Below are positions 67 through 63,234 of a stretch of 64,000 bases of DNA, in pieces (the first letter of the stretch is position 1; each line of letters opens with the position of its first letter). Location of the stretch: NCBI GenBank assembly GCA_024226555.1, contig JAAELO010000702.1, forward strand, positions 1 to 64,000, read 5' to 3'. Below the pieces are notes generated by a model. That model worked only from the letters and a program-made list of their open reading frames with translations. It did not search any database and was not told where the DNA came from. Both the position numbers and the translations under genes were made by a program. Source of the DNA: Desulfobacterales bacterium (lineage in GTDB: Bacteria; Desulfobacterota; Desulfobacteria; Desulfobacterales; JAAELO01).

Positions 67-255
67 TGTAATTTGGAATCGGTAAAAACCTGATAAGATT
101 CAAAGAATAGTTATAAAAAAAAGTTACTGAAGAATTTTTTCATGTATAACACTGATTCTGCGTGATTGAGGCTTGGCTACGATTATAAACAATACATAAC
201 ATTTGCTATTTTGGATACTTGAAATATTTTGTTACCTGCCCACAATATTTTTTAT
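67..255 (+). ncRNA. Candidate structured non-coding RNA, copy A
   Basis: This non-coding stretch is repeated at 62950-63234. A first block of ~37 nt differs at one position between copies, and a second block with the core GTTACTGAAG is almost identical. The 3' end is a hairpin with loop GTTACCTGCC followed by a T-run. The terminal stem is AT-rich here and GC-rich in copy B, so the sequence changed while pairing was kept. GAATC/GATTC can enclose a small GGT-AAAA-ACC hairpin near the 5' end. No open frame is conserved. I infer a transcribed small RNA with its own terminator; a mobile non-coding element is the alternative. No known family recognised. Confidence 0.5.
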
Positions 256-302
256 AGTCCTTAATAGCAGATCGGCGTAAAAAGGCGCTTCTGTAGAAGA
301 GA

Positions 303-333
303 AGGAGTGGTTGGATTTAATATCCAGCCACTC
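303..333. terminator. Strong hairpin, terminator-like
   Basis: Arms GGAGTGGTTGGAT and ATCCAGCCACTCC pair over 13 positions with one G-T wobble around a 5-nt loop. The GGAGTGG arm also occurs in the hairpins at 722-745 and 7700-7723. No T-run as clear as in those two follows, so termination here is uncertain. Confidence 0.4.
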
Positions 334-410
334 CAACAAAACTTTAATATTTAACAAAAAAAATGTATTCTTTGATTATCTCCTAAAATTCCAATTTTAT
401 CTCTGTTTAA

Positions 411-524
411 TGTTAACCTCTAAAATTATTGAAGTAGATCAATCTTCAAAAACAAAATTAAACCGTTTTTGTTTTCTCAATCTATATCAATTTAATGATA
501 CCGTTTTAGAGGTTACCAGACCTG
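411..524. repeat. MITE-like element, variant ends
   Basis: Inverted ends (GTTAACCTCTAAAA on the left, TTTTAGAGGTTACC on the right) bound ~110 bp without a credible gene. The ends are a variant of the GGGAAYCTCTAATAA ends found throughout the window. An open frame crosses it (311-595) but has no ribosome-binding site and is built from the repeat, so I do not call it a gene. The sequence just right of it (531-600) recurs at 7921-7985. Confidence 0.5.
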
Positions 525-61890: not shown

Positions 61891-62056
61891 ATTTCCTCAA
61901 GCCAATCTAACAATTATTCAAAATTTCATAATTTTCTTTGTACAAACATTTTCAAAGATTGTACAGGTATTTGATCCAATTTAGATATCCTTGAATATTT
62001 GTGACATTATTTAAAGTTTTGTTATCTTCAAATACTATAAACTAATAAATCCAGTT
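61891..62056. other. Intergenic region, nothing recognised
   Basis: AT-rich sequence upstream of the SET-domain gene; presumably its promoter. No motif assigned. Confidence 0.4.
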
Positions 62057-62142
62057 GTAGGTTGGAGGCGAAATCCAATAAATAGATAAAACTCATTTTC
62101 CGGTTTTGTCTGGTTTCGTTGCACTCTACCAGACCTACAGTT
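62057..62142. repeat. REP-like palindromic repeat
   Basis: TGTAGGTTGGAGGCGAAATCCA and, inverted at the right, GGTTTCGTTGCACTCTACC-type sequence ending ACCTACA. The CGTTGCACTCTACCxGACCTACA pattern is a known type of extragenic palindrome in Proteobacteria. Single copy in the window. Confidence 0.55.
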
Positions 62143-62628
62143 TACATTTATCAAATGTCCCTGATATTTTAATAGTAATTTTTTTCGATCATAATTTTTT
62201 TATATTTTTTTGGTAGCATTTATCTATCTATAAATATTACTCATATTGAATTTAAATGTTTTGAAAAATATTAATTTTATAGATTTACAGCTATGAAATA
62301 TTTGATTAAAAAAAACACATTTAATCAAACTCTGACAAACCGAATCTCTTGTATACCTCATATGGCATAGACCTTTATATAGATATTACCAAATGCCCTC
62401 TATTTTAAGATATTTTTAACATGAAATAAAAAGAGTAAATTATCAAAAAATGAATGGATGTCCGAAAAATATTAAAAATATTTATATTTTATACTTGAAT
62501 TTAAAATGTGATAATAATAAGATTTTTTTAGAAGTAAAAACAACGTTTTATTCGAGCGAGCCGGAAAGAGGATTACGGCCTCAATCCGACTCTAACATCA
62601 ACTCTTCACTTATTAAGGAATAAGAGCT
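62143..62628. other. Intergenic region, little recognised
   Basis: Strongly AT-rich to about 62540, then a less AT-rich patch (62553-62590) with GAGCCGG...CCGAC segments, just before the small open frame. No tRNA-like cloverleaf could be drawn. Confidence 0.4.
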
Positions 62629-62787
62629 ATGTCTAACATATCTTTTACAGAGAAACAGAAGTTCCGTCAACGCCTCTTTCACACCGGGCAGATTTTACAC
62701 CGAAAACAATTAGAATGGAATGAATTTAGTCTGAATTGCTGCATAAGCTTTTATAGTGCAGGATGGTGGACCTTTAGACTGGTTTAA
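62629..62787 (+). CDS. Small open frame, 52 aa, possibly truncated
   Basis: MSNISFTEKQKFRQRLFHTG... to 52 aa, ATG after AAGGAA. Composition and codon use look coding for the first ~33 residues (basic, helix-forming), then drift. It may be the 5' end of a gene truncated before the structured repeat at 62806. No family recognised. Confidence 0.35.
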   Translation: MSNISFTEKQKFRQRLFHTGQILHRKQLEWNEFSLNCCISFYSAGWWTFRLV

Positions 62788-62805
62788 ACCATTCTATATT
62801 TCGCA

Positions 62806-62940
62806 TTTAATAATTGCTCTTTGATACGAAATACCTGCTTTCTTCGAAAAAATGAAGCTAAAACAAAATTAAACCTTTATTGTTTTAGTGTTAAATTTTT
62901 CTCATGCCTTGTATTTCAATCAAATTTCTAATTATTAATA
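62806..62940. repeat. Structured repeat with altered ends
   Basis: TTAATAATT (62808) and AATTATTAA (62930) are the inverted ends. The interior has GAAATACCTGCTTTC and CATGCCTTGTATTTC, with inner palindromic AAACAAAATTAAA / TTTAGTGTTAAATTT. The GGTTCCC part is missing. It adjoins the non-coding RNA candidate at 62950. Confidence 0.65.
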
Positions 62941-62949
62941 AGCAAAAGG

Positions 62950-63234
62950 TGTAATCTGGAATCGGTAAAAACCTGATAAGATTCAAGGAATCGATATAAA
63001 AAAAAGTTACTGAAGAATTTTTTCATGTACAACACTTTTTCTGTGCCAAAACATTCTAAGTCTCCTTTTTAGGTGGAAGATGAGTAATACTTTTTGAATT
63101 CAAGCAAGCTTTGACAGGAATTTTTTCAGTGAACCGGTTCTGCGTGATTGAGGCGAGGCTATTATCACCAATACATAACCTTTGCTATAGTTGTACTTCA
63201 AAGAGGTTGTTACCTGCCCGCAACCTCTTTTTTT
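62950..63234 (+). ncRNA. Candidate structured non-coding RNA, copy B
   Basis: Second copy of the element at 67-255. The two 5' blocks are nearly identical. A ~100-nt insertion (about 63031-63130) sits where copy A is continuous. The 3' block (TTCTGCGTGATTGAGGC ... AATACATAAC) is conserved. It ends in the terminator GAGGTTG-TTACCTGCCCG-CAACCTC-TTTTTTT, GC-richer than in copy A but with the same loop. The insertion shows that the middle tolerates length change, as in RNAs with a variable arm. Confidence 0.55.

Follow-up and report, generated by a model that had tools for sequence, protein, structure and literature searches.

A probable new family of large structured RNAs dispersed in about 50 copies through one Desulfobacterales genome

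Large structured RNAs of bacteria are few, and most are without a known function. HEARO, or omega RNA, with IscB (RF02033; PMC9755519) is a structured RNA that lies directly upstream of a nuclease-like ORF and was first found by comparative analysis (PMC9755519); GOLLD, ROOL and OLE (PMC12286853) are bacterial RNAs of large size and ornate fold, with contacts of the kissing or pseudoknot kind. Leader-peptide attenuators combine a promoter, a ribosome-binding site, a short ORF, alternative structure and a terminator-like hairpin ahead of a gene, group I and group II introns are large structured RNAs dispersed in copies with and without an ORF, and REP and MITE repeats are dispersed, intergenic elements with hairpins. 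The RNA that we describe here is like each of these in the features just named.

It is also unlike each of them. It has no RF02033 match and no guide region identified in it, and the protein encoded beside it is ~100 aa long with no HNH or RuvC, the downstream ORFs being W or AntA-like (see below) and not of the IscB type. It has no sequence or covariance-model match to GOLLD, ROOL or OLE and, unlike them, occurs in ~50 dispersed copies in one genome and carries a mini-ORF. Compared with leader-peptide attenuators, its predicted closed core is much larger and includes a pseudoknot, its peptide is not conserved and many of its copies are gene-less. Unlike the introns, it has no Rfam match, no reverse transcriptase (RT) or homing-enzyme ORF and no exons (no group II RT ORF was recognised in the flanks read, and a group I P3-P7 core gave no Rfam match at E up to 10 for the window copies). 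The likeness of its P1 stem to group II domain V is superficial, the AGC triad varying to AGA or AGT in several copies. REP and MITE repeats insert into the RNA unit, which differs from them in its putative promoter, ribosome-binding site and long-range covarying helices. In layout, the RNA is nearest to attenuator leaders and HEARO-type RNA-plus-ORF modules, but the HEARO and intron features that we tested for fail.

The window analysed here is the first 64,000 nucleotides of one contig (C701, 1-64000) of a genome of 7.69 Mb in 904 contigs. An earlier note, made from the letters of the window, had proposed a novel non-coding RNA in two copies, at 67-255 (copy A) and 62950-63234 (copy B). The two are indeed related (BLAST E 2e-33 between them, far above chance) and share a 5' block of 93% identity over 94 nt as well as a 3' block; the ~100-nt insertion described in copy B is present and is an extra domain inside P5; and the hairpin loop GTTACCTGCCC is kept while its stem changes (ATATTTTGT/ACAATAT vs GAGGTTG/CAACCTC), as had been seen, apparently because CTGCCC in the loop pairs with GGGCAG in a pseudoknot. 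Real as they are, these two stretches are not the whole feature: both are the 3' half of a larger RNA unit. Flanks of the copies across the genome show conserved sequence reaching ~400 nt farther upstream, beyond the repeat that had been taken to precede the RNA, and by this reading copy B occupies ~62156 to 63234; copy A has no 5' half because the contig begins there. The repeat (GTATTTCAAT) exists, but it lies within the RNA, which continues past it, and we regard it as an insertion because the RNA of five copies (C430, C537, C851, C699 and C795) is otherwise the same but lacks a repeat at this site. A second, related repeat sits at another site in C526 and C805. The absence of coding potential holds to the extent that the RNA signal dominates, but a translatable mini-ORF (62629-62787) overlaps the RNA. 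The earlier note put the length and the copy number too low and missed both the insertion of the repeat and the association with small genes downstream.

Where two copies had been reported, the genome has 50. Copy A as BLAST query had 29 matches across the genome, and a 5'-domain query together with a covariance model gave 50 copies of that domain (49 strong and one decayed); a few further copies, truncated, lie at contig ends, and decayed copies exist (e.g., C198:114700). The units are ~0.55-0.7 kb long (longer where repeats are inserted) and fall into two lineages, A, which includes both window copies, and B. Comparison of these ~50 putative transcription units of a large structured RNA gives good support to their being a new structured RNA family, and the family appears to be new as a thing because no known family's model matches it. 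The Rfam search that the earlier note had proposed found, with covariance models, no family in Rfam 15 at gathering or permissive thresholds, the weak matches being chance-like; with compensatory changes that conserve its fold, the RNA stands as a novel structured non-coding candidate, and neither window copy is a piece of a coding mobile element, the alternative named in that note. A tRNA/tmRNA scan of the window found none.

The RNA also seems to be narrowly distributed. The core, searched for as an exact 27-31-nt pattern (gap 2-6) that would miss very divergent forms, had no occurrence in 84,980 species genomes (from which the window's own genome was possibly left out) and none in IMG/VR viral contigs; DNA searches found no relatives in 57 genomes of the order, and a model of the 5' domain, run on 389 genomes of the class and 395 of the phylum, turned up no convincing relative; none of these genomes belonged to the same family or genus, so that the RNA family could be wider, in unsampled relatives. 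Two borderline matches to the 5' domain were set aside, one (G350) as a phage-integrase leader without the core and the other (G661) on inspection. Searches of the open-access literature turned up no account of this RNA.

From its 5' end, copy B reads TGTCCC, promoter, P0, P1, P2 with AAGGA, the ATG of the mini-ORF, the 5' strand of helix A and GGGCAG, and then P3, the inserted repeat, P3', P5, the ~100-nt domain, P5', the 3' strand of helix A, the CTGCCC hairpin and T7 (Table 1). Where the upstream flank of a lineage-A copy is untruncated, TGTCCC nearly always stands ~470-520 nt before the core. A promoter pattern TTG-N19-21-TANNNT occurs at the place of the copy B promoter in 48 of 49 copies, where shuffles expect 10.9. 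Similarity between copies stops at the last hairpin of copy A, C701:1 and C526 diverging just after it.

Table 1. Positions in the window of the predicted elements of copies B and A
Feature	Position	Strand	Remark
TGTCCC motif	62156-62161	+	Probable upstream limit of lineage-A unit
Copy B promoter, TTGAAT-17-TAAGAT	62495-62523	+	Sequence pattern
P0 hairpin, presumed transcript 5' end	62533-62552	+	By eye; stem kept, sequence differs in other copies
P1 stem-loop, GAGCCGG..CCGACTC	62558-62592	+	Compensatory G-C/A-U exchanges between copies
P2 hairpin, ACTCTT..AAGAGC	62601-62627	+	From sequence; lineage A has 87% of cells paired
AAGGA in P2 loop	62615-62619	+	Ribosome-binding site hairpin
Mini-ORF, 52 codons	62629-62787	+	Open frame; overlaps RNA core
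Helix A 5' strand, CGCCTCTTTCAC	62671-62682	+	Pairs with 63144-63155; 98-100% of cells paired
GGGCAG, pseudoknot 5' side	62686-62691	+	Partner CTGCCC, 63214-63219
P3 5' strand, TTACACC	62695-62701	+	Covarying exchanges with 3' strand
MITE-like repeat in P3 domain (limits approximate)	62805-62945		The GTATTTCAAT repeat of the earlier note
P3 3' strand, GGTGTAA	62948-62954	+	Partner of TTACACC
P5 5' strand, GAATCGGT	62959-62966	+	Covaries with 63133-63140
Extra domain inside P5 (limits approximate)	63036-63132	+	The ~100-nt insertion of the earlier note
P5 3' strand, ACCGGTTC	63133-63140	+	Partner of 62959-62966
Helix A 3' strand, GTGATTGAGGCG	63144-63155	+	Partner of 62671-62682
3' hairpin, GAGGTTG-TTACCTGCCCG-CAACCTC, then T7	63202-63234	+	Stem varies, loop kept across copies; loop contains CTGCCC at 63214-63219
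Copy A, 5' side cut by contig start	65-172	+	Near twin C526 in lineage-A alignment; P3 3' strand 65-71, P5 76-83 with 151-158, helix A 3' strand 162-172
Copy A outer helix, 201-209/264-272	201-272	+	Encloses hairpin with CTGCCC, 236-241
Copy A last hairpin, GGAGTGGTTGG..CCAGCCACTCC	303-334	+	Inter-copy similarity ends here

How well does such a fold stand up among the copies? In alignments that were not fitted to the structure, which was itself read from some of the same copies, the 59 named pairs are 94.6% formed in lineage B (12 copies, MAFFT), compared with 34-50% when the partner is slid by 1-3 columns, and 11 pairs show changes on both sides where shuffles give 3.9, none of 500 shuffles reaching as high. 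In lineage A (nine copies), 94.3% of pairs are formed; double changes are fewer because the copies are more alike, and their count alone gives no excess over shuffles. The exchanges can be read directly: CCGG/CCGA for CCAA/TTGA and GACAG/CTGTC in P1; TTACACC/GGTGTAA, TCACTCA/TGAGTGA and TTAAACC/GGTTTAA in P3; and GAATCGGT/ACTGATTC for GAACCAGT/ACTGGTTC and GAACTGGT/ACCAGTTT in P5. The putative pseudoknot, GGGCAG/CTGCCC, is paired in 100% of cells in the alignments of both lineages, but its compensatory support is thin, as the six core pairs hardly vary; beside them, lineage B has a G-C pair where C574 has A-T, and neither side of the pseudoknot survives in C761. The outer helix around the CTGCCC hairpin is an additional element, frequent in lineage A (100% of cells paired there, with four pairs varying to G-U), the 3' hairpin is often terminator-like, and the extra P5 domain, not present in copy A or the compact copies, has related inserts in C702, C99, C630, C38 and C77.

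The mini-ORF, 30-70 codons long across units, begins behind the ribosome-binding site with an ATG exactly 12 codons before CGTCAACGCC in all copies with sequence there. Codons 19-43 are open in 43 of 45 copies, against means of 2.3 and 1.6 stops there in the other two frames; codons 2-12 have a pS of 0.098 and a pN of 0.084, later codons are under weak constraint at most, and third codon positions are the most conserved in the core. The frame is therefore kept open while most of the constraint on sequence falls on the RNA. A protein-coding origin of the core was rejected, its RQRLFH codons having 0 synonymous vs 665 non-synonymous pairwise differences. With so little selection on the peptide, translation of the mini-ORF may be incidental, which weighs against a leader switch of the kind considered below.

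Downstream, the lineages part company. W, a gene for ~100 aa with an invariant WYVGLT-like core and under strong purifying selection (pN/pS 0.18), is next in 15 of 23 lineage-B copies, those for which 600 nt or more of sequence are available. Wherever there is sequence upstream of a W gene, for those at contig ends too, an RNA copy or remnant precedes the gene, the closest W lying 40 nt past the hairpin. The 19 informative lineage-A copies have W in none, an AntA-like gene in three and no gene in 16; both window copies stand alone, and the next gene is mostly convergent for lineage-A copies. A gene lies directly downstream in the same predicted transcript for the W and AntA copies and not for the 16, yet the gene-less copies have helix A, P5, the pseudoknot and the outer helix fully paired. 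The AntA-like gene matches Pfam AntA at E 9e-5 (23.4 bits, below the cut-off of 27) and a PHROG anti-repressor at E 1e-8. Relatives of W occur in three of 291 genomes of the order, none adjoining this RNA; they match Pfam GIY-YIG at E 0.06-0.1, below the cut-off, and W itself does not match it. By eye, W is without the Arg and Glu of these relatives (Ser41 in place of Arg, Lys in place of Glu), and its predicted model (mean pLDDT 77) matches none of the solved folds, GIY-YIG structures included; we treat GIY-YIG ancestry as a lead only. W was not found in phages, plasmids, viral contigs, PDB sequences or PDB folds. At one locus (L141, C898), a potassium-channel-like gene separates two tandem W genes, the second of which follows an RNA remnant; two W genes are pseudogenes (L071, with stops near its end, and L083, with a disrupted start); and elsewhere in the order, genome G023 has a remote relative of W beside a TIR-like protein gene (L111).

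Other repeats lie in and around the RNA copies. A MITE-like repeat with ends GTTAACCTCTAA..TTAGAGGTTACC occurs inside and near them (window 411-520, L002, L004 and others), a second MITE-like type has ends GGGAACCTCTAATAATTA..TAATTATTAGAGGTTCCC, and a REP-like repeat (GTAGGTTGGAGGCGAAATCCAA..) lies directly upstream of copy B, at window 62053-62140, and likewise of two other copies (L085, L089). REP-type (Y1) transposase genes adjoin RNA copies (C58, C430, C38; L005, L006, L023), one copy is cut at -36 by a REP-type element (C38; L023), and RHS toxin fragments and SMI1-like immunity genes lie beside RNA copies at L015, L021 and L023.

What, then, might such an RNA do? Promoter, fold, open frame and linkage to W or AntA-like genes are what comparison of the sequences shows; from these, we infer mutual exclusion of folding and translation, a resulting gate on the downstream gene and action of stand-alone copies in trans. 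The explanation that we tentatively prefer, as possible but short of probable, is a leader: a promoter-driven RNA whose core would be a translation-sensitive switch setting readthrough into the downstream gene. The transcript would start with two or three stem-loops and present the ribosome-binding site, helix A would close the core around the P3 and P5 domains, and the pseudoknot would join GGGCAG of the mini-ORF to the loop of the 3' hairpin. Ribosomes on the mini-ORF would hold the strands of helix A and the pseudoknot open; without them, the core would close and dock the 3' hairpin, setting readthrough into W (lineage B) or the AntA-like gene (three lineage-A copies). Stand-alone lineage-A copies would act alone, for instance in partnership with the same protein, as its decoys or as derived sRNAs. 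The 40-nt gap between hairpin and W in the closest case leaves no room for a separate W promoter, which favours a leader, but some units have a strong terminator-like hairpin and T6-T8 before W, and some W genes start up to ~900 nt off, behind other repeats, both of which count against it.

The intact fold of the gene-less copies favours a role of the RNA itself, and it is conceivable, if somewhat unlikely, that these are stand-alone structural or regulatory RNA genes whose downstream genes are partners or later captures, with control in cis secondary. The 16 of 19 lineage-A copies that keep the core helices with no gene, the next gene mostly convergent, would be expected of such genes, but random capture would not give W genes that are all RNA-linked, and the kept-open mini-ORF and its ribosome-binding site are left unexplained. 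A mobile RNA-protein module like HEARO/IscB, in which a particle of the RNA and the small protein spreads the element and moves gene-less copies in trans, we consider unlikely. High dispersed copy number, an ORF in only a subset, many ORF-less copies with intact RNA, decayed copies and the marginal GIY-YIG similarity of W relatives elsewhere speak for it; W, at ~100 aa, without the relatives' Arg and Glu and with a model unlike GIY-YIG structures, does not, AntA is a different protein, and the unit has no recombinase. No target duplication or terminal repeat was seen at RNA units, lineage-A units probably starting at TGTCCC and ending near the last hairpin; spread by transposition is possible. 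Least credible, indeed very improbable, is a MITE/REP-like hairpin repeat without RNA function, moved by the genome's REP-type transposases: their genes do lie by C58, C430 and C38, and MITE-like repeats are common in the genome, but such a repeat needs no promoter, ribosome-binding site or compensatory pairing across 100-400 nt, and the REP-type element that truncates the C38 copy is hence separate from the RNA. Close W genes and intact gene-less copies together fit an RNA that was originally a leader and that also works or spreads alone. A broader picture, which we think doubtful, is of a lineage-specific RNA element, its core closed and pseudoknotted, multiplying in its host, its fold switched by translation of a mini-ORF indifferent to the peptide, its small DNA- or RNA-binding proteins exchangeable and its ORF-less copies functional in trans.

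With ~50 divergent copies, this one genome supplies its own comparative alignment, so that covariation can test the fold with no need of other species. As part of a spreading RNA-protein module, the RNA would represent a new type of RNA-based element; as a leader, it would make unusual use of a mini-ORF, one that is translated while its sequence serves the fold of the RNA.
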